Positions 7,815 through 17,097 of a stretch of DNA of 64,000 nt are shown here, one piece after another. The stretch is from the NCBI GenBank assembly GCA_013214945.1, contig JABSRT010000009.1:127070-191069 (forward strand), given 5' to 3'. The notes beneath the pieces are model-generated. The model was given only the letters and a program-made list of their open reading frames with translations, had not been told where the DNA came from and ran no database searches. The translations under genes were made by a program, and so were the position numbers. Source of the DNA: Gammaproteobacteria bacterium (GTDB lineage: Bacteria > Pseudomonadota > Gammaproteobacteria > Enterobacterales > Psychrobiaceae). Each line of letters starts with the position of its first letter. Position 1 is the stretch's first letter.

Positions 7815-8516
7815 ATGCAGTCATTGATATCAACCATAGATCCTAGCTGGCAGCCATTTTTTGAACAACAACTAGCCCAGCCTCAACTCAAGCAACTGTT
7901 TGAGTACTTGGCGCAGCAACAAGCCGCGGGTGTTGTCATTTATCCACCACAAGCACTGTGGTTTAGAGCTTTCGAGCTGCCGATAGCGCAAATTAAACTG
8001 ACCATTATTGGCCAAGATCCTTATTTCAACGCTGGTCAAGCAATGGGCTTATCTTTTAGCGTGCCTCATGGTGAAAAAATTCCGCCAAGTTTAAGAAATA
8101 TCTATAAAGAATTGACCACCGACATTGGTTTACCTGCCGCTAATCATGGTGACTTAAGTCGCTGGGCCGACCAAGAGGGGATATTTTTACTCAACGCTTC
8201 ATTAACTGTCGAAGCAGGCAATGCTGGCAGCCACCTAAAACGCGGTTGGCAGCAGTTTACCTTGGCCGCCTTAGATTATATCAACCAACAGTGCCACCAC
8301 ACGGTATTTCTCGCCTGGGGCGCTTTTGCCCATAAGTGTTGTAAAAATATAGATCTTGAGCGTCATCAAGTTATAAAAACATCACACCCGAGCCCACTTG
8401 GTGCTTATAAAGTAATGAAAACTGCACCGGCATTTTTGGGCTCGAATTGTTTTTCTGATGCCAATGATTATTTAATCGCGCATCAAAAAAAGCCGATTAC
8501 TTGGGCAGTTGATTAA
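7815..8516 (+). CDS. ung: Uracil-DNA glycosylase, family 1 (divergent active-site loop)
   Basis: Removes uracil from DNA at the start of base excision repair. I chose ATG at 7815 (233 residues, AGG upstream); a TTG at 7797 would add six residues. The water-activating loop reads GQDPYF where the family has GQDPYH: the catalytic Asp and Tyr are kept but the neighbouring His is Phe. LLNASLTVEAG holds the uracil-reading Asn, and TSHPSPLG holds the catalytic His and the intercalating Leu. The segment after HPSPL has extra residues compared with E. coli Ung. The 3' end overlaps the convergent protease gene by 20 bases. Confidence 0.9.
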   Translation: MQSLISTIDPSWQPFFEQQLAQPQLKQLFEYLAQQQAAGVVIYPPQALWFRAFELPIAQIKLTIIGQDPYFNAGQAMGLSFSVPHGEKIPPSLRNIYKELTTDIGLPAANHGDLSRWADQEGIFLLNASLTVEAGNAGSHLKRGWQQFTLAALDYINQQCHHTVFLAWGAFAHKCCKNIDLERHQVIKTSHPSPLGAYKVMKTAPAFLGSNCFSDANDYLIAHQKKPITWAVD

Positions 8517-9282
8517 GTAATTTATTTAAATATTTAACGGGGATGGCATAGGTGATTGCGCTGGGTTTAGATAAAACATTCTCTTTAGATTGTTTTACAA
8601 ACACTTTGTTTACTATGCCGTGGACCCGCCCAGTGCGGGGATCATACATTGGACTGCCACTATTGCCCGGATACGCAGTCGCATCAAGTTGGTAAACAAA
8701 ATAAGGGTTACGTAAACGCTTAAGGCTCGCCAAATTGAGTTGTTTGGCTGAGGCGGCGGGGATCGCAATAGGCGTGATACTAGCAACAATTCCAGTATGA
8801 GTTGCTGGGTATAATCCTAATACGCCACCAATGGGAAAACCGGTGAATGCAATATCACTCCCTTCACCTATTAGGTTACTTGCCCCTAACTTAAAAGTAG
8901 GTAACGCTTTACCGGAAATTTTCAGCACCGCCAGATCATGCAATGACGAAGACGCGATAACCTTAGCATCACGGAACTGCGGTTTGTTGCCCGTACCAAT
9001 CAACACCACTAAACGTTCTCGTCCGCCCTCATCAAGCGAGCTCGGGATTACATGTTTATTGGTTACAATATGACGGCCATCCAAAATAGCAAAGCCGGTG
9101 CCTCTAAGCGTTAACCTTGGCGAGCCAGTGGGATGAAAAGTACCGATACCGACGATAGCAGGTTTGATTTTTGCGATAGTTTTCGCCAGCTCACCACTGG
9201 CAAAAGCACTCGCTGGCCATAACATTACAACAATAAAAAATACCCTGCTCATCCTTAACCATCGTTTTTCAATTGCTGCCAT
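8497..9282 (-). CDS. Secreted trypsin-like serine protease
   Basis: Predicted exported serine peptidase of the trypsin/HtrA fold. The catalytic triad is visible: His in TNKHVI, Asp in LHDLAVLKI, Ser in YPGNSGSPMY. There is no PDZ domain, so it is not a full DegP/DegS. The frame is open to 9315, but ATG at 9280-9282 has GGAG seven bases upstream and gives 261 residues with a normal signal peptide (KRW..RMSR n-region, hydrophobic core, cleavage after SAFA). It is divergent from the acyl-CoA ligase with 82 bases between the starts, so the promoters must be close. Substrate unknown; a link to the neighbouring exosortase-type cluster is inference. Confidence 0.85.
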   Translation of the reverse strand: MAAIEKRWLRMSRVFFIVVMLWPASAFASGELAKTIAKIKPAIVGIGTFHPTGSPRLTLRGTGFAILDGRHIVTNKHVIPSSLDEGGRERLVVLIGTGNKPQFRDAKVIASSSLHDLAVLKISGKALPTFKLGASNLIGEGSDIAFTGFPIGGVLGLYPATHTGIVASITPIAIPAASAKQLNLASLKRLRNPYFVYQLDATAYPGNSGSPMYDPRTGRVHGIVNKVFVKQSKENVLSKPSAITYAIPVKYLNKLLNQLPK

Positions 9283-9364
9283 TGTTATCTCCGCAATAAA
9301 TAATGAAAAAATCACAAAATGTGACTATTCTTTAACTACAGTAATTATAGAAGAGATCCTCAGG

Positions 9365-10945
9365 ATGAGTATTTTTTTCCATCACTTGGTCACCGAAACA
9401 GCCAAAACAAAACCCAATAATATCGCGCTAACTTTTCAGCAACAACAGCTAACCTATCAGCAACTTGCCGATGAGATAAGCCGAGTTGCCGCTAAATATC
9501 TGACGCTCAATGTTAAGCGTTATGACCGAGTGGCAACCTTTTTACCCAAATGCCCACAAGCGGTAACGGCGCTGTTCGCCACCAGCATGATTAATGCAGT
9601 ATTTGTACCGATTAACCCAGTCTTAAAGCCCCAACAAGTGAAACACATATTAACCGACTGCAATGTCAAAGTGTTAGTCACTAACAGCGCCCGCGCTAAG
9701 CAATTACTGGAGATATTTCCACAATGCCCAGACTTAGTCCAATTGATCATCATTGATCCTAAACCAGCGCAGTTTCACACGATTAATCTCAACATTCAGG
9801 CTTGGCCTAACCAAGAACCGGTCACCGAGTTACCGCCCCTTGCCAATGCTACCGATGGTGACATGGCCGCGATCCTGTACACCTCTGGCAGTACTGGTGC
9901 AGCAAAAGGGGTGGTATTGTCACATCGGAACCTGATTTGTGGCGCGCAAAGTGTTGCTAGTTATCTTAATAATAGCGCTGAAGATAAAATATTAGCCTTG
10001 CTACCTTTAAGTTTTGATTATGGTTTAAGCCAGTTAACAACCGCATTTAATGTTGGCGCGCAATGTGTCTTGATGGACTATTTATTGCCTGGAGATGTCA
10101 TTAAAGCCGTTGCCAAACATAAAATTACCGGCCTTGCTGCCGTACCGCCATTATGGGCACAATTAGTTAAGTTAAACTGGCCAGCTGAGGCCAGAGATTC
10201 GTTACGATATTTCACCAATACGGGTGGCGCGATGCCAGAAGCAGTATTGATTAAAATTCGCCAGATATTCGAACAGGCTACCCCTTATTTAATGTACGGC
10301 TTAACCGAAGCATTCCGTTCTAGCTACCTGCCACCTGAATTTGTCGATAGTCACCCGACGTCGATGGGCAAAGCGGTACCCAATGCCGAACTATTGGTTG
10401 TTACGAACGATGGCCGTATTGCCGACGATGACGAACCAGGAGAGTTAGTTCACCGTGGACCGCTCGTCAGCTTAGGCTACTGGAATGCCCCCGAAAAAAC
10501 AGCGCAACGCTTTAAGCCTTTTAGTCAGTCATTATCCGAACTATGTTTGAACGATATTGCGGTTTACTCAGGCGATTGGGTTCGCCGTGATGCCCAAGGT
10601 TTTTTATACTTCATTGGTCGCAAAGACGAAATGATCAAATCGTCGGGTTATCGAATCAGTCCTGCTGAAATAGAAGAAGTTGTGTATCAAATAGCCGATG
10701 TCGTCGTCGCCGCGGTAGTTGGTATTCCTCACCCTGAACTAGGCCAAGCGGTCGTTGTTATTTATCAAGCTAAAGGGGACAACCAATCGCTCACCGCTGA
10801 TATCACTCGCCATTGTAAAAAAGAGTTAGCCAATTACATGCAACCATTGCATTATATTAGTCGCGCTGAGATGCCGCACAATGCTAATGGAAAAATTGAT
10901 AAAACCGTATTAACGGCCGAGTTACAAGATTTATTCAAGGAATGA
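9365..10945 (+). CDS. Acyl-CoA ligase (AMP-forming), exosortase A system-associated
   Basis: Adenylate-forming enzyme that should activate a carboxylic acid as acyl-AMP and transfer it to CoA or a carrier protein. Core motifs are all visible: LYTSGSTGAAKGVVLSHRNL (phosphate loop) near residue 180, MYGLTEAFRSSYLPP, YSGDWVRRDAQGFLYFIGRK, DEMIKSSGYRISPAEIEEV, and the C-terminal catalytic lysine in NANGKIDK. Family resemblance and neighbours fit the ligase of exosortase A/PEP-CTERM loci (TIGR03098 type). The frame is open to 9164, but ATG at 9365 starts the family-typical MSIFFHHLV. It overlaps the next gene by four bases (ATGA). The true substrate cannot be read from sequence. Confidence 0.85.
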   Translation: MSIFFHHLVTETAKTKPNNIALTFQQQQLTYQQLADEISRVAAKYLTLNVKRYDRVATFLPKCPQAVTALFATSMINAVFVPINPVLKPQQVKHILTDCNVKVLVTNSARAKQLLEIFPQCPDLVQLIIIDPKPAQFHTINLNIQAWPNQEPVTELPPLANATDGDMAAILYTSGSTGAAKGVVLSHRNLICGAQSVASYLNNSAEDKILALLPLSFDYGLSQLTTAFNVGAQCVLMDYLLPGDVIKAVAKHKITGLAAVPPLWAQLVKLNWPAEARDSLRYFTNTGGAMPEAVLIKIRQIFEQATPYLMYGLTEAFRSSYLPPEFVDSHPTSMGKAVPNAELLVVTNDGRIADDDEPGELVHRGPLVSLGYWNAPEKTAQRFKPFSQSLSELCLNDIAVYSGDWVRRDAQGFLYFIGRKDEMIKSSGYRISPAEIEEVVYQIADVVVAAVVGIPHPELGQAVVVIYQAKGDNQSLTADITRHCKKELANYMQPLHYISRAEMPHNANGKIDKTVLTAELQDLFKE

Positions 10946-12240
10946 AAATAATGCCAAATGCCGTACCAAAAGCAATGCTAGAATCCGCGCCAAAAGCAAT
11001 GAGAAAGCCGACGCCCATTCATGCGCCAATGGAGCAATTTAGCAGCGTGAACGGTCAGCTGATGTTAGGACGTTTCACCATGCGTGATATCGCCAACATG
11101 GTTGGTCAAACGCCTTTTTATGCATATGACCGCACCGTAATCAACACGACGGTCAATGCCTTGCGCCAAGCTTTACCTGCGGCAATAGAGTTGCACTATG
11201 CGATTAAAGCCAACCCCTATCAGCCCGTGATAAATCACATGGCTTCATTAGTTGATGGTTTTGATGTCGCGTCTGCCGGAGAGATGTTACGGGCACTGCA
11301 AACGTCAATGAGCCCCGAAAATATTAGTTTTGCAGGCCCCGGAAAAACTAACCAAGAACTCATCAGCGCCATCACCGCGGGTGTGACATTAAATGTTGAA
11401 TCAGCCTCAGAACTGACAAAAATCGAGCAGTTAAGTCAGCACCTCAACATTAAGGCTAATGTTGCGCTGCGGGTCAACCCTGCCTTTGAATTAAAATCGT
11501 CTGGCATGCAAATGACCGGGGGCGCTAAGCCGTTTGGCATCGACAGCGAGCAAGTCGCCGATTTAATTGTGAAGATAAATAACGGCCCGCTTAATTTTAT
11601 CGGGTTACACATTTTTAGCGGCTCGCAAAATTTAAAACCTCAAGCATTAATCGAGGCGCACAATCAAACCTTTGCGTTGGCTAGTCAGCTGCTCGAGCAA
11701 GCAAATAGCAGCGCGATTAGTATCAATATTGGTGGTGGGTTTGGCATTCCCTATTTCCCAGGTGAGTCACATTTGCCGCTCAGTGAAATTTGCAAAAATT
11801 TAGACCGCTTGTTAAATCAATATCAACGACAATTTAGCCAAACAAAAATAGTGATGGAGTTTGGTCGTTATTTAGTTGGCCCCGCTGGCGTTTATGTCTG
11901 TGAGGTTATCGATATTAAGCAATCGAGGCAGCAAACTTTTGTAGTCGCTAACGGTGGTCTACATCATCACCTGTCAAATTCAGGAAATTTCGGCCAGGTG
12001 ATTAGAAAAAATTACCCGGTGGCTGTCGCTAATAAATTAACCGGCCATGAAAATGTGAATGAAACGGTAACCTTAGTGGGTCCTCTTTGTACCCCGCTCG
12101 ATATTTTAGCCAATAAGGTTCAGCTACCAGCTATTGAGGTCGGAGATTTGATTGTGGTTTATCAATCAGGTGCCTACGGTGCTAGTGCCAGCCCCCAACA
12201 ATTCTTAGGTCATCCAAATCTTGCTGAAATATTAATTTAG
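10942..12240 (+). CDS. PLP-dependent decarboxylase, exosortase A system-associated
   Basis: Fold-type III decarboxylase related to diaminopimelate and ornithine decarboxylases. The PLP lysine is in LHYAIKANPY near residue 92. Glycine-rich phosphate binding is in INIGGGFGIPYFPGE, with EFGRYLVGPAGVY and the active-site cysteine of GPLCTPLD further on, and YQSGAYGASASPQQFLGHP at the end. It matches the decarboxylase that accompanies the ligase in exosortase A clusters (TIGR03099 type) better than lysA, because lysine-pathway neighbours are absent. The ATGA overlap with the ligase implies translational coupling. The first 30 residues are a low-complexity KAM/PTP stretch, so ATG further in could also be used. 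Confidence 0.85.
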   Translation: MKIMPNAVPKAMLESAPKAMRKPTPIHAPMEQFSSVNGQLMLGRFTMRDIANMVGQTPFYAYDRTVINTTVNALRQALPAAIELHYAIKANPYQPVINHMASLVDGFDVASAGEMLRALQTSMSPENISFAGPGKTNQELISAITAGVTLNVESASELTKIEQLSQHLNIKANVALRVNPAFELKSSGMQMTGGAKPFGIDSEQVADLIVKINNGPLNFIGLHIFSGSQNLKPQALIEAHNQTFALASQLLEQANSSAISINIGGGFGIPYFPGESHLPLSEICKNLDRLLNQYQRQFSQTKIVMEFGRYLVGPAGVYVCEVIDIKQSRQQTFVVANGGLHHHLSNSGNFGQVIRKNYPVAVANKLTGHENVNETVTLVGPLCTPLDILANKVQLPAIEVGDLIVVYQSGAYGASASPQQFLGHPNLAEILI

Positions 12241-12280
12241 CCTCATGTTTTAAACATAAAACCTCATATATTTCAAATAT

Positions 12281-12305
12281 AAAAAAGGGCCATTGGCCCT
12301 TTTTT
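12281..12305. terminator. Bidirectional terminator between convergent exosortase-type operons
   Basis: A-run, GGGCCA/TGGCCC stem and T-run form a symmetric hairpin at 12281-12305. It serves the rightward ligase-decarboxylase operon and possibly the leftward prsT operon. Confidence 0.88.
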
Positions 12306-12360
12306 ATTACTTTATAAACTACAACAGACACTACACCATGCACTACAACATAGCCTACAA

Positions 12361-15135
12361 TTAAGTGCTGGCCTGCTCTCTTAACTGCATCAATTGCGAT
12401 TTTAAATGCTCAGGTATGTCATTGCCTAAATTATTCAATAGCTCTAATGCTTGATTTTTTTGTGCCATCGCAATTAATACTTCGGCTTTATGCAGAGTAA
12501 AAGCGATGCCTTGGGGGGCGAGACTAATCGCTTTATCAAATTGAATAACCGCTTGCTGGTATTGTTGCATCTTAAACAGAATCACACCGTAACTGTCGAT
12601 AACTTGTGGGTTCTTTGGCATTATCGTTAAGGCTTGTTTAATGTATTTCAGCGCTTGTTGATGCTGACCATTTTCTGACAGGCTCCAGGCTAAATTATTC
12701 AAATAGGCAGGGTTTTTAGGTACCGCTTTAATAAGCTCTTGATAAAGCCCAATCGCCAGCGGTGAGTTAGTACTAACATATATTGTCGCCAATAATGATT
12801 TTACCGAACGATTCAAAGGTTCGGTGACTAAATGATCTTTAAGTACCGTTACCGCCAGATCTGTTTGTTGCAGCTTGATATTACTTTTTGCCAACAACAG
12901 CGCATAACGCGCTTTAGGTTCCGCAGTATATGCTTTGGTTAACTGAGTCAGAGCTTGCGGATATTTCTGTTCTCTAAAAAATAGCTCACCTTCAATCGCC
13001 GCAATATAACTACGGTTTTTTACATTTTTCTTATAGGTATTAAACAAGCGACGCGCCGAGCCTAACTGGCCATCTAGCATCATTAAATTAATTTTAAGCC
13101 CATCAATATTAGTTAAATTACCAAACTTTTTAGCAACCTGTTCAACCAATCGCAGACCATCATTATAACGTCCAAGCTTTTCATGTAGGGCAATTTGCTT
13201 TAATAACGGTAAGGGAGAGTTTGGGTTGCGCAGTGCCCACTGCTCAAAAGTTTTCAACGCCTGTTCCGGTTGGCCTGCTAACATCAAAATATCACCGTAA
13301 CGACGCCAATATGTCTCACTTAATTGCTCTCGAGATTTTATTGAATTTAATAAATCAATGCCTTGCTGCATTTCACCATCAGTAACATGAATAACCGCTC
13401 GTTTGAGTAATATCGGCTCCGATTCAGGAAATGCACTATAAGCCTCTTTAAAAACATTTTTATACTGTTCAATATCCTCGGCTTGCTTCAGTATTAGTTT
13501 CGCTTTTAATTGCAACGCGGTGAAACGTTGCGGATCCATCACCAACACGTTATTAATATCGATGAGAGCTTGATCGTAATCATCTTGAATCACCCGCAAT
13601 TTGGCTAAATTATGTAATGCATCGGCATTATTTGGAAATTTAGCCAAATTAGCCTGCAGCATCTTTTCAGCCAAAGCATAGTCTTTATTATAAAATGGGA
13701 TAATACTTGCGACATTCCAGCCATAAGGCTTATCACTATATTGTTTTTTCAATCGCTCAGCGATATCACGTAATTCGTCAAAACGCTTAGCCAACGCATA
13801 AGATGAGCTAACTTGTGGTAGAACTTGCTCAACTAATTCGGCAACAAATAACGACTGAGTTAAGTCATCGAGTCCCTCAGCCATGCCAAGTTTCATTTTT
13901 AGCACGCCGCGCTTTAACACTAAAGTTTGATTGTCAGGCAATTGGGTTAGCGCCTGCTCAACGAGTTTCAGTGCCGTTAAGTAATCTTGTGCGATCGTAA
14001 ATTCATTGGCCGCTAATACATACAAAACGGCATTCTTTTGGTCTGGAGCCGATAAATTGCCCACCGCATCTCGAGCGGTGTTAATGCTGCCGCGTTTAAT
14101 ATTATTAATTATTTGCATGATCTTCGGCCCGATTAAGGTCGTAGTATGCTTGCTGACCCGAGATAAATGACGGTAAGAGGCTTTATAATCTTCTTGGCGA
14201 AACAGAACCATGCCCGCAACAAGGTTAGCTTGCACATTACCCGACATCGACTCGAGCGTCACTAGCGCATGTTTTAGCGCTAACTCAATCTCATTATCTT
14301 GATAAGCTAACCGAGCAAGTATCACATTAACTACCGGTTGCTTAGCATTAACCTTTAATAGTTTAGCTAACTCTTCCTTAGCACGATTCACGTTATCATT
14401 TTTCAATAAGCTATTAATCAGTAATAGGTTTATTTTGCTGACATTAATTTTGGTCAATTCGATATATTTATCGTAAGCAGCGACCGAGCTTGCATAATCA
14501 GCTCCGGCATAAGACAGTCCTGCATATAGCAGAACAGCTTCTTCCATTGAAGGGTGATCCTCAAGCAGTGTCTTAACGAGTTCAGTTGCTTGAGCGTAGT
14601 CAGTATTAGCAGAAGCCGACATTACTTGTCCTAACCTAGCGTATGCTGCCTCTTCATTAAGGTCATTAGCTAAACTATATTCCGCTAATGCTTGGTCTCG
14701 CATGCCTTGGGACATTAATGCCTGCCCGCGTAACACATAAGCAACCACCAGATCATCAGTGGCCAAGTCAGAAGTCACTAAGGGCAAAGCTAATAGCTGC
14801 TCAAATTCTTTTTGTTTGAACAGTACCATCGCCAGTGGCATTAGCGACTCTTGCAGTAAAGCTGGCTCGCTAACAGTACGCTGCAATTCCTTTTTTGCTG
14901 AAGCATATTGGTTATGTGCCAAATACAACTTGCCCAGTGCCAATCGAACTATAGCGTTAGTAGGATCTTGACGAATAGAATTTTTATACTCAATAATAGC
15001 GGCATTGGTATCACCATTTGATTGATGATTTTTAGCTAATTCAAAATACTCCTGACTAGTTTTAGCACCAGTACAACCGCCAACCATCAAACTAGCCACC
15101 AGTAACGCTAATGTGAACCTTTTATCTTTTAACAT
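12361..15135 (-). CDS. prsT: PEP-CTERM/exosortase system TPR-repeat lipoprotein PrsT
   Basis: A large (924-residue) exported TPR protein. The N-terminus is a lipoprotein signal with lipobox MVGGC (Cys at about 21), and the rest is a run of roughly twenty tetratricopeptide-like helix pairs, for example LGKLYLAHNQYASAKKELQR and LAWSLSENGQHQQALKYIKQ. Length, lipobox and neighbours match PrsT of exosortase A loci (TIGR02917 type). Function is unproven; a role as envelope scaffold for export or polymer assembly is inferred from TPR content. It is last in the leftward operon, 12 bases after hydrolase 1. ATG start at 15133-15135 with AGGATAAAAATT upstream. Confidence 0.85.
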   Translation of the reverse strand: MLKDKRFTLALLVASLMVGGCTGAKTSQEYFELAKNHQSNGDTNAAIIEYKNSIRQDPTNAIVRLALGKLYLAHNQYASAKKELQRTVSEPALLQESLMPLAMVLFKQKEFEQLLALPLVTSDLATDDLVVAYVLRGQALMSQGMRDQALAEYSLANDLNEEAAYARLGQVMSASANTDYAQATELVKTLLEDHPSMEEAVLLYAGLSYAGADYASSVAAYDKYIELTKINVSKINLLLINSLLKNDNVNRAKEELAKLLKVNAKQPVVNVILARLAYQDNEIELALKHALVTLESMSGNVQANLVAGMVLFRQEDYKASYRHLSRVSKHTTTLIGPKIMQIINNIKRGSINTARDAVGNLSAPDQKNAVLYVLAANEFTIAQDYLTALKLVEQALTQLPDNQTLVLKRGVLKMKLGMAEGLDDLTQSLFVAELVEQVLPQVSSSYALAKRFDELRDIAERLKKQYSDKPYGWNVASIIPFYNKDYALAEKMLQANLAKFPNNADALHNLAKLRVIQDDYDQALIDINNVLVMDPQRFTALQLKAKLILKQAEDIEQYKNVFKEAYSAFPESEPILLKRAVIHVTDGEMQQGIDLLNSIKSREQLSETYWRRYGDILMLAGQPEQALKTFEQWALRNPNSPLPLLKQIALHEKLGRYNDGLRLVEQVAKKFGNLTNIDGLKINLMMLDGQLGSARRLFNTYKKNVKNRSYIAAIEGELFFREQKYPQALTQLTKAYTAEPKARYALLLAKSNIKLQQTDLAVTVLKDHLVTEPLNRSVKSLLATIYVSTNSPLAIGLYQELIKAVPKNPAYLNNLAWSLSENGQHQQALKYIKQALTIMPKNPQVIDSYGVILFKMQQYQQAVIQFDKAISLAPQGIAFTLHKAEVLIAMAQKNQALELLNNLGNDIPEHLKSQLMQLREQAST

Positions 15136-15147
15136 AATTTTTATCCT

Positions 15148-16032
15148 CTATCCTTGGACAATTGTATTAACAGTATAAATCTCAACTTCACTGCGCCATT
15201 GCGCACAGGAAAATGTATGGTTAGCGGCGGCTAGTTTTAGCTCACTGGTCATTTTCTGTGACCACAATTGAGCCCACTGAGAATCGTCAGTAAGCAACTG
15301 CATAAATTCTTTGACCACTAAATCTTGGCCACTGGCGATAAAATGCACCTGGCCATTAAATTTAGTTAAACCTTGGCACATATATTCTACAAAATTATCT
15401 TGGGTAAACTTATGACTAACCAACGGAGTCGCCGATCTTTTACTGCTGTTTTGCGGTAAATAAATACCCCTAACGGTGCTAAAAAAACCAGTCACTGCGG
15501 CAGAGAAATTAAAACGACCCGAGCTTAATTTCCCCCAAAATTCTTTGGACAAAAAGCGTTCAAGATAGTAATACTTGAGCATGGTCTTCGCTTTAGTCTT
15601 TGACTGCTCGACCCAAGGGTTAGCGATAAAAATTTGGTTGATTACTGTTGGCTGATGCTGGCTTAAATAGAGTAAAATAGCTGAAGCGCCATCACATAAT
15701 CCCCACAGGGCAATATGCTTTAGCATCGGACACTGCGCTTGAAACTGCTCTATTGCTGCAGGTATGTCTTGATAAGCAGTTAAAAAATTGCTTAATTGAC
15801 CATCACTATCACCAATGCCAGCATAATCAAAACGAAAAACCGCGATACCATGGGCTGCCAAAAATCGCGCCAGCAGTACAAACTGGCGATGACTGCCAAC
15901 GCGTGTTTGCGGCCCGCCAACAATAATGACCACTCCCTGTTTAACTTGGGTTTCATCAGCACAATTAGCCTGATGAACCATACCGGTTAGCCAGTGCTGA
16001 TGACCTTTGAACACTACCGCAGTCTCATGCAT
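15148..16032 (-). CDS. Exosortase A system-associated alpha/beta hydrolase 1
   Basis: Cytoplasmic alpha/beta hydrolase of 294 residues, TIGR03100 type. The block IVGGPQTRVGSHRQFVLLAR with RFDYAGIGDSDG (residues 37-77) is diagnostic, and the nucleophile elbow reads LWGLCDGAS, with Cys where many hydrolases have Ser. The same elbow is usual for this family. The start ATG at 16030-16032 lies inside the end of hydrolase 2 (8-base overlap ATGCATGA), so the two are translationally coupled. The natural substrate is unknown; release or transfer of a carrier-bound acyl group is a guess from the ACP and ligase nearby. Confidence 0.82.
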   Translation of the reverse strand: MHETAVVFKGHQHWLTGMVHQANCADETQVKQGVVIIVGGPQTRVGSHRQFVLLARFLAAHGIAVFRFDYAGIGDSDGQLSNFLTAYQDIPAAIEQFQAQCPMLKHIALWGLCDGASAILLYLSQHQPTVINQIFIANPWVEQSKTKAKTMLKYYYLERFLSKEFWGKLSSGRFNFSAAVTGFFSTVRGIYLPQNSSKRSATPLVSHKFTQDNFVEYMCQGLTKFNGQVHFIASGQDLVVKEFMQLLTDDSQWAQLWSQKMTSELKLAAANHTFSCAQWRSEVEIYTVNTIVQG

Positions 16033-16867
16033 TCAAGCCTCCTAACAAATAACTGATACAGTAATCGCTAAGCTCGGGCACCTGAGTGATTTCTTGTGTT
16101 TGCCAAAAGCTATCACCAACAATAAATTGCTCAGTAACGTCATTAAATTTCTGCCAATTGGCAATGGTTTTTTTACTAATCGCTTTAATTTGTTGCGTCG
16201 GTGGCTGACCAATCTCGACCCAAGCTAAACTTAAGCTATCAGGTAATTGTTTAAGGTCAAGATAGTTTAATTGGGCTATCGCCTCACTTAGTCCGTGATT
16301 TAAATGGTAACCGGCAATTTCAAGCCCACCATTTTTTAATAATTCTTGCTGTAAGTCGGCCATCGTCAATTTGGCCTTAGCATTAATCATGCCCGCCGCT
16401 AAACGCAGCCGCATAAATTGCACCATAAATTGCTTACCATTAAGGGCCGGTTGCAATAACACCAAAGGGGCAGCGGGCGAAATCAATTGGTTACAATAGC
16501 AATCTAAAGCCAATAATGCTCCGCTACGCAGCCCAATCAGTCCGATAGCAACGTCTGGATCTTGCCTTTGCAACGCAAGATAAAGTGCCCGAATATTTTG
16601 TTGCCAAATATCCCAACTGGCTTGACTAAAATCGCCTTCGCTATCTCCGGTACCAAATAAATCAATTAAGCTGACTCTAATATGATGTTGAGCGGCTTGG
16701 CGCGCGAAATCAGCCAACATTTTACGGCTTTTATTTGCTTCTTCAGCAAAAGGAGCGATCACAATAACATTTAACCGGATTTTCTGTTCAAGCTCCGGAA
16801 CAAATTGGGTTATAAATAGCTTGCCGTGAGCTGTATTTAAAAAAAACAGCCGCGGCTTTATTAGCAT
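16025..16867 (-). CDS. Exosortase A system-associated alpha/beta hydrolase 2
   Basis: Second alpha/beta hydrolase-like protein of the cluster, 280 residues, TIGR03101 type. The family stretch IAPFAEEANKSRKMLADFAR is at residues 37-56 and LIDLFGTGDSEGDFSQASWD at about 68-87, with the elbow-like LIGLRSGALLALD near residue 110. The elbow has Arg-Ser rather than the Gly-x-Ser-x-Gly consensus, so catalytic competence is uncertain. It starts at ATG 16865-16867 inside the end of the ACP gene (7-base overlap) and runs into hydrolase 1 with an 8-base overlap. All three are one coupled operon. Confidence 0.82.
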   Translation of the reverse strand: MLIKPRLFFLNTAHGKLFITQFVPELEQKIRLNVIVIAPFAEEANKSRKMLADFARQAAQHHIRVSLIDLFGTGDSEGDFSQASWDIWQQNIRALYLALQRQDPDVAIGLIGLRSGALLALDCYCNQLISPAAPLVLLQPALNGKQFMVQFMRLRLAAGMINAKAKLTMADLQQELLKNGGLEIAGYHLNHGLSEAIAQLNYLDLKQLPDSLSLAWVEIGQPPTQQIKAISKKTIANWQKFNDVTEQFIVGDSFWQTQEITQVPELSDYCISYLLGGLNA

Positions 16868-17097
16868 TTTAGTTCGACAAATGATGTTAATGTACCGATA
16901 GTTTCAAAAACTTCGGCGCTTATTTCATCATCATCAATGACAAAGCCGTAGTTCTCCTCTAACTGGGTAATGACAGTAACAACAGCCATTGAGTCGAATT
17001 CGGCGATAGCGCCAATTAATGGCGTCGCGTCATCCCAATCACTGATGTCGTCAATTTGAAGGCATTGCTGTAGGATCACCATGATATCGTTAAGCAT
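16861..17097 (-). CDS. Acyl carrier protein of the exosortase-type cluster
   Basis: A 78-residue acidic carrier protein. The phosphopantetheine attachment serine is in EFDSMAVVTVI near residue 41, and the C-terminal helix region IDDDEISAEVFETIGTL is typical of ACPs. ATG at 17095-17097 has AAGGA seven bases upstream; the longer frame to 17157 lacks a site and adds a non-ACP sequence. It is first in the leftward operon ACP-hydrolase 2-hydrolase 1-prsT. It is distinct from the fatty-acid ACP, which normally sits with fab genes. The likely partner is the AMP-forming ligase 6 kb away in the convergent operon (inference). Confidence 0.88.
   Translation of the reverse strand: MLNDIMVILQQCLQIDDISDWDDATPLIGAIAEFDSMAVVTVITQLEENYGFVIDDDEISAEVFETIGTLTSFVELKC

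Follow-up and report, generated by a model that had tools for sequence, protein, structure and literature searches.

What does a set of genes named for its association with exosortase A do when it stands at a site of its own, apart from any exosortase? The question is raised by a 64,000-nucleotide stretch of a gammaproteobacterial genome of the family Psychrobiaceae (the window; positions 127070-191069 of contig C9 in genome G000, which comprises 4.70 Mb in 59 contigs), where a ligase (LIG), a decarboxylase (DEC), the lipoprotein PrsT, two hydrolases (HYD1 and HYD2) and an acyl carrier protein (ACP) are encoded side by side. The answer favoured here, with somewhat better than even confidence, is that these genes form the accessory part of an exopolysaccharide system of the exosortase-A type, and that a β-alanyl-type ACP thioester would N-acylate the exopolysaccharide. 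LIG, DEC and ACP are the core that is retained without a detected exosortase in some relatives, unlike the six-gene set. The genes are as follows:

9365..10945, plus strand: LIG, named 'acyl-CoA ligase, exosortase A-associated' (TIGR03098, 720.9 bits; cut-off 592)
10942..12240, plus strand: DEC, a pyridoxal phosphate (PLP) decarboxylase (TIGR03099, 577.1 bits; cut-off 478)
12361..15135, minus strand: PrsT, a TPR lipoprotein (TIGR02917, 448.5 bits; cut-off 312)
15148..16032, minus strand: HYD1, an α/β-hydrolase (TIGR03100, 284.9 bits; cut-off 168)
16025..16867, minus strand: HYD2, a relative of the α/β-hydrolases (TIGR03101, 217.4 bits; cut-off 203)
16861..17097, minus strand: ACP, a stand-alone carrier of 78 residues with an Asp-Ser-Met attachment motif, judged by eye

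A sequence-only reading of the window had described this six-gene exosortase A accessory set at 9365-17097 between ung and hemE. Its coordinates are right and profile searches confirm both flanking genes; when the profiles that it had proposed (TIGR03098-03101, TIGR02917 and TIGR03099) were run, all five named families passed their NCBIfam cut-offs and none fell below. The ACP passes no NCBIfam cut-off and enters through Pfam, by a narrow margin (PF00550, 22.0 bits against a cut-off of 20.8, scored on a longer frame), with the solved protein PDB 2lki as a clear match (E 1.2e-14). The set is not the single operon that had been supposed; it comprises two convergent operons, LIG-DEC on the plus strand (9365-12240), whose genes overlap by 4 bases, and ACP-HYD2-HYD1-PrsT on the minus strand (17097-12361), in which adjacent genes overlap by 7-8 bases or stand 12 apart.

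In the scheme proposed, this module is housed at its own site in the tal-ung-hemE region, with XrtA and the export, regulator and glycosyl genes on another contig. LIG would adenylate the side-chain carboxylate of L-aspartate, or of a close analogue, and load it onto ACP; DEC would then remove the α-carboxylate on the carrier to give β-alanyl-S-ACP, and LIG may repeat the cycle to build a short oligo-β-alanine. Where both hydrolases occur, HYD1, with its Cys nucleophile and held by a non-catalytic HYD2, would move or edit the thioester. An enzyme of the FemAB or GNAT type would amide-link the unit to an amino sugar freed by the polysaccharide deacetylase of the locus, and the outcome would be a cationic decoration of the exopolysaccharide, with no intrinsic step of protein sorting. 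More tentatively, LIG, DEC and ACP may be a general, separately inherited (oligo-)β-alanine machine for surface polymers, served by a Cys-hydrolase, its dead partner and a FemAB/GNAT enzyme, which organisms with XrtA apply to the matrix that holds their PEP-CTERM proteins.

The exosortase itself is found elsewhere in the same genome. A whole-genome search returned a single one, on contig C4 (XrtA, TIGR03109, 318.7 bits; cut-off 208), and none on C9, in keeping with the earlier statement that no exosortase lies near the module, so that the accessory set stands outside the exosortase locus. At the C4 locus, 12 further XrtA-type polysaccharide or regulator families score over their cut-offs (PrsR, PrsK, ATPase, outer-membrane protein, tyrosine kinase, chain-length, export, EpsB, deacetylase, FemAB, amidotransferase and O-ligase), and one glycosyltransferase scores below every cut-off. 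Of the nine PEP-CTERM tails that exceed the 16-bit cut-off in the genome, five reach E 2e-4 or better and one comes from a 74-residue frame that is itself doubtful; because the cut-off is exceeded in two of 14 control genomes too, the weak matches are unsure. None of the nine lies on C9, and the window indeed holds no PEP-CTERM target. The XrtA system of this genome is complete but split over two sites. An assembly fault is unlikely as the cause of the split, because the distance to the nearer contig end exceeds 50 kb for the module and for XrtA alike, because the ung/tal layout recurs in two congeners (G016 and G139), and because the one-contig genome G014 has LIG-DEC and its exosortase 1.26 Mb apart.

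Relatives were surveyed in samples of 197 genomes of the order and 299 genomes across the phylum, with exosortases detected at E 1e-10. In the order, DEC is present in 29 of 197 genomes (26 over the cut-off; the three order-mates below it all carry an exosortase) and an exosortase in 58, with both in 14 and DEC alone in 15 (Fisher p 0.026, kinship ignored). Thirteen of these 15 belong to one family (f8) and the counts are hence not independent; the exosortase-less carriers include one-contig assemblies rated 99-100% complete (G053, G148 and G161). Uncoupling at the level of the genome is thus seen in relatives, 15 of the 29 DEC-bearing order-mates having no detected exosortase, and the association of the accessory families with the exosortase is loose in this order. 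The proposal that module and sortase can be physically separated is right, though at the level of these relatives rather than of the genome for which it was made, which does not lack the sortase and has a full XrtA locus and PEP-CTERM tails elsewhere. Among the 14 order-mates with both, four keep them within ~62 kb on one contig, seven have them on different contigs, some short, and three have them on one contig at distances of 0.5 Mb (if circular), 1.3 and 1.5 Mb. A comparison of gene order showed that the two-site layout recurs in the genus: LIG-DEC adjoins ung and tal in G016 and G139, with the exosortase on another contig in both, and the gene order is shared by G096, whose contigs (~9 kb) are too small for the distance to be judged. 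Five of eight sampled congeners have neither DEC nor exosortase, three of these five being 80-93% complete.

The ACP follows DEC and not the exosortase. The window ACP has one match in each of 30 out of 30 DEC genomes (the 29 of the order and G297) at E 6e-11 or better, even where it lies far from LIG-DEC. The control comprised 60 of the 168 DEC-less order-mates, 42 of which have an exosortase; a single weak match was found (E 4.4e-4), and none in any of the 42 exosortase-bearing genomes (Fisher 4.6e-23 for ACP with DEC versus without, kinship ignored). HYD2 is distributed differently: in a search of 43 order-mates at a threshold of E 1e-20, it was found in 13 of 14 genomes with DEC and exosortase, in one of 15 with DEC alone (G172) and in none of 14 with exosortase alone. 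Its profile cut-off is passed by only four of the 43, all exosortase-bearing, and nine of the 299 phylum genomes have it at E 1e-20. Two genomes in the phylum sample have a HYD2 relative and no DEC match (G393:C11:87033, E 3e-24; G420:C1:1355579, E 6e-27), and the hydrolases may likewise have an independent existence.

Might the module make a carrier or linker onto which the exosortase deposits PEP-CTERM proteins, and so be part of sorting? The idea comes from the family notes, and the phylum sample speaks for it: DEC exceeds its cut-off in 19 of 299 genomes, of which 18 have an exosortase, 12 within ~12 kb, with 15 weaker DEC matches (E 1e-100 or better) outside this count, four of them in genomes with an exosortase. 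PrsT is also part of the PEP-CTERM regulatory profile in the passages of PMC1569441 that concern it. Set against this is the occurrence of LIG, DEC and ACP without a detected exosortase in more than half of the carriers in the order. In a LIG+DEC tree of 49 rows (G013 is missing, its LIG being truncated at a contig end), the exosortase-less rows are nested among the others, with at least three changes of exosortase state, and the 42 exosortase-bearing controls have neither DEC nor a matching ACP. A linker for sorting is therefore judged unlikely. The sequence-only reading had suggested a small-molecule or acyl product for protein export or polysaccharide; the evidence supports the polysaccharide part and allows the product to be narrowed to a β-aminoacyl-ACP, and a role in protein export is less likely because the core occurs without an exosortase.

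What the core would make is suggested by the substrate pocket of LIG. Despite its name, the solved structures nearest to it are adenylation domains for amino acids, namely gramicidin synthase, with 256 bits summed over two domains (142 in the better of them), and VinN, with 195 bits; over the core stretch, LIG is closest to VinN (3wv4/3wvn; 58.9 bits versus 32.5 for the next family). According to the sections of PMC7756342 and PMC11253843 on its pocket, VinN binds 3-methylaspartate or aspartate as a β-amino acid, with Asp230 contacting the amino group and Ser299/Arg331 the non-activated carboxylate. These residues map to D218, T286 and R318 of LIG by one constant offset, the VinN numbering being derived from the VinN chain with a single offset of 16. 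Across 49 LIG rows (the window and those 48, out of 58 DEC loci, in which a LIG frame of more than 350 residues was found), position 230 is Asp in 49 of 49, position 299 is Ser in 43 and Thr in six, including the window, and position 331 is Arg in 49 of 49, alike in rows with an exosortase and in the 15 without. As a control, LIG was compared with 18 AMP-binding loci from elsewhere in its genome, 15 of which aligned at all three columns; Arg occupies position 331 in none of the 15, and Asp position 230 in 10. The region around loop β13-β14 aligns to VinN free of gaps in the sequence alignment, this loop being one residue shorter in VinN than in α-amino acid domains. From its pocket residues and core match, LIG is predicted to be a VinN-type adenylation enzyme for aspartate or an analogue.

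The pocket bears equally on the possibility that LIG is a fatty acyl-CoA/ACP ligase and that an acyl group and a decarboxylated amino acid are joined by the set into a lipid of the N-acyl amine or N-acyl amino acid kind. Such a product would suit the TIGR03694 acyltransferase (269.2 bits; cut-off 112) that follows LIG-DEC in G134 and the plsB gene that follows it in f8 and f14, recognised by Pfam in one locus and by position and length in the others. Asp230 and Arg331, however, mark an amino-dicarboxylate pocket, and none of the 15 other AMP-binding domains that align fully in this genome has the Arg; the lipid is judged quite unlikely. Two further observations concern adenylation domains in these genomes. 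A second, diverged LIG-DEC pair in the Psychrobiaceae metagenome-assembled genome G139 (L102, G139:C112) has a LIG with the Lys330-Arg331 of VinN and is possibly a natural-product cluster. G000:C3:2472-24802 holds large frames (2212 and 4527 residues) resembling nonribosomal peptide synthetases (NRPS), with several AMP-binding domains.

DEC has its best solved match in BtrK (E 3.9e-75, 256.8 bits; next family 167.4), whose database name is L-glutamyl-[BtrI acyl-carrier protein] decarboxylase. The motif C-T-P of BtrK is present in 52 of 59 DEC rows, the others having C-T-T (four), C-T-S (two) or C-N-P (one), and LysA of the same genome has C-E-T at this place; DEC is nearer to BtrK than to LysA and bears active-site letters of the BtrK type. 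Its substrate is predicted to be an aminoacyl-ACP. A precedent for the pairing is given by the relevant portions of PMC12186527, in which the VinN-type AfcQ loads L-Asp on the carrier AfcK in vitro, through the side-chain carboxylate as its authors conclude, AfcP decarboxylates the AfcK-bound Asp to β-Ala, and AfcQ then repeats the loading. The same genome also encodes a third LysA-like decarboxylase (L186; G000:C4:188400-189548), which scores 205.5 bits, below the lysA cut-off.

The hydrolases appear to be an active enzyme and an inactive partner. The HYD1 triad of Cys113, Asp237 and His272 is invariant in 15 of 15 rows (Cys in 21, His in 22 and Asp in 20 of a wider set of 22), and in a model of the α/β-hydrolase fold (pLDDT 88.8) these residues lie in the loops that follow strands. 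A Cys nucleophile would suit acyl transfer from thioesters, and HYD1 is predicted to be an acyl-thioester transferase or a thioesterase; the best-ranked results of its fold search are for the most part feruloyl/cinnamoyl esterases and lipases, which informs the fold class only. At the nucleophile position HYD2 has Arg114, invariant in 16 of 16 rows (Arg in 21 and Lys in one of 22 in the wider set), and it is predicted to be a non-catalytic partner of HYD1. The two likely form a complex, because they are fused into one protein in four genomes, namely G052, G064, G098 and, twice, G172, where the fusion proteins score below both hydrolase cut-offs. The two HYD2-HYD1 fusions of G172 (L221, L222) lie near an XrtA-type polysaccharide locus in which no exosortase was detected; they flank a formyltransferase gene, and one has Ser in place of the Cys nucleophile.

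The acceptor is suggested by the genes among which the core is found. On the S. meliloti plasmid pSymB, a conserved gene is followed by LIG, DEC and ACP and, ~1 kb on, by a polysaccharide deacetylase (the gene table is incomplete there); LIG and DEC have their signature residues intact and the surroundings encode glycosyl-, sulfo- and pyruvyl-transferases. A search for XrtA in a plasmid collection matched 39 records, and the ten genera named for them do not include Sinorhizobium (plasmids only; further genera have one record each). An Aureimonas plasmid has LIG-DEC and a nearby ACP amid glycosyltransferases. In G172, which has no exosortase at E 1e-10, XrtA-type families for FemAB, deacetylase, chain length and export exceed their cut-offs, the XrtA-type tyrosine kinase falls below its own, and an ACP lies nearby; G297, also without an exosortase, groups LIG, DEC, ACP and a deacetylase together. 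G134, in which an exosortase is present, has DegT, Acetyltransf_6, ACP, HYD2 and HYD1 consecutively. These settings point to a polysaccharide and are the ground for proposing that a β-alanyl-type unit is joined to an amino sugar by an amide bond. In S. meliloti, Aureimonas and G297, the gene immediately preceding LIG encodes a conserved protein of 289-295 residues (L238:16977-17864, L239:11101-11970, L233:5970-6857), 59-60% identical to the S. meliloti one and GNAT-like by eye; the one example scanned has no Pfam match. It could be the transferase to the sugar.

Several observations weigh against an accessory module for polysaccharide N-acylation as proposed here. The near-constant pairing of DEC with an exosortase across the phylum sample is a strong tie to sorting, and the tree fits loss of the exosortase or transfer of LIG-DEC into exosortase-less genomes alike. 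The column of VinN Lys330 is Phe in 48 of 49 LIG rows, with Lys in the second G139 copy only, which leaves room for a substrate other than aspartate; glutamate, as with BtrK, or a methylated analogue would suit LIG equally. In the 12 exosortase-less genomes of g8, no polysaccharide genes were seen adjacent to LIG-DEC or ACP, and the acceptor there could be a lipid. HYD2 at E 1e-20 is found in only seven of the 18 phylum genomes with DEC and exosortase, so that not every DEC system requires the hydrolases; the functions predicted for them come from letters and fold, and the model of the natural HYD2-HYD1 fusion was poor (pLDDT 50.6) and was not used. A plain relocation of genes, in which a complete XrtA system over two sites carries no functional message, is exactly the pattern of this genome taken alone and accords with the few order-mates that keep both parts close (4 of 14), but it leaves unexplained why LIG, DEC and ACP recur together without an exosortase, with ACP at a different site, and is very improbable.

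Other neighbours of the core vary among the relatives. In the 12 g8 genomes of f8, ACP precedes relatives of PrsK and PrsR between relatives of serA and rpiA (families profile-checked in L219 only: PrsK 372.6 against 300, PrsR 616.5 against 502.6; in L229 the ACP frame is masked by another and was placed by a separate ACP search), and the gene after LIG-DEC has the length of plsB, an identity that Pfam supports in L081, the one locus checked. In the window, one gene on which the earlier account was silent separates ung from LIG:

8497..9315, minus strand, divergent from LIG: trypsin-like protease (PF13365, 75.3 bits), with a signal peptide judged by eye

A protease gene stands beside LIG or one gene from it in seven of 14 exosortase-bearing DEC genomes of the order (seen in G016, G139, G134, G082, G098 and G064) and in none of the stretches (20 kb or less) from the 15 exosortase-less ones; in relatives with an exosortase, the set may include it too. 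Divergent to LIG in genomes of f8 and f15 (L078, L081, L082-L092, L095, L096; L076 of G014) lies a gene of ~375-395 residues, of which the two examples scanned (L081, L076) are VanZ-like proteins, and VanZ may belong to this set. Co-regulation of the accessory operons with the PEP-CTERM genes through a sigma-54/PrsR site was also considered. Sigma-54-like sites lie upstream of four of the five placeable PEP-CTERM genes (nine matches in all; L004-L009) and one 8/12-letter site upstream of the window protease gene; none that reaches 8/12 letters lies 400 bases or less from the LIG or ACP of the window, and in relatives sites of at least 8 letters occur in three of 14 LIG and none of 11 ACP upstream stretches, both counts having no shuffled control. 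No conclusion was drawn from them.

In the open-licence literature, nothing was found that joins exosortase, acyl-CoA ligase and decarboxylase or that uses 'exosortase A system-associated', and among the matches listed exosortase is not joined to BtrK, VinN, butirosin or vicenistatin. The words decarboxylase, ligase, hydrolase and acyl carrier are absent from Haft 2006; one paper that combines PEP-CTERM with decarboxylase, hydrolase and ligase gives no account of this set in the passages concerned, and the four TIGR numbers occur in a single open-licence paper, as TIGR03100 in a Burkholderia polysaccharide cluster. What is new is that a core of three genes is inherited separately from the exosortase in this order, with pocket letters that name its likely product; four families known only by their association with exosortases thereby gain a concrete, testable chemistry. 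If this is true, many genome annotations mislead, and a class of β-alanine-bearing bacterial polysaccharides may await discovery.

The module invites comparison with four known systems. With the XrtA/PEP-CTERM system (EpsH; PrsK, PrsR, PrsT; TIGR03098-03101) it shares all five named accessory families over their cut-offs and, in the same genome, XrtA, its locus partners and PEP-CTERM tails; it differs in that the accessory set occupies a separate site and that LIG, DEC and ACP of relatives occur where no exosortase was found. With VinN/VinL/VinO and AfcQ/AfcK/AfcP, in the parts of PMC11284099 and PMC12186527 that describe them, it has in common the pocket letters, a stand-alone carrier and a PLP decarboxylase of the BtrK kind. 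It departs from both in having two α/β-hydrolase proteins, no NRPS or polyketide synthase (PKS) gene in the 9.4-17.1 kb stretch, Phe at VinN Lys330, and relatives in polysaccharide settings. Of BtrI/BtrK in butirosin biosynthesis, BtrK has in common with DEC the C-T-P motif and one like K-M-x-G-G..F-G; in that pathway BtrJ, another kind of ligase, loads glutamate. In the Dlt D-alanylation of teichoic acids, a stand-alone adenylation enzyme and a carrier supply aminoacyl groups to a surface polymer, and the likeness to LIG and ACP feeding a surface polymer is one of analogy only, with a decarboxylation step added in the module described here.

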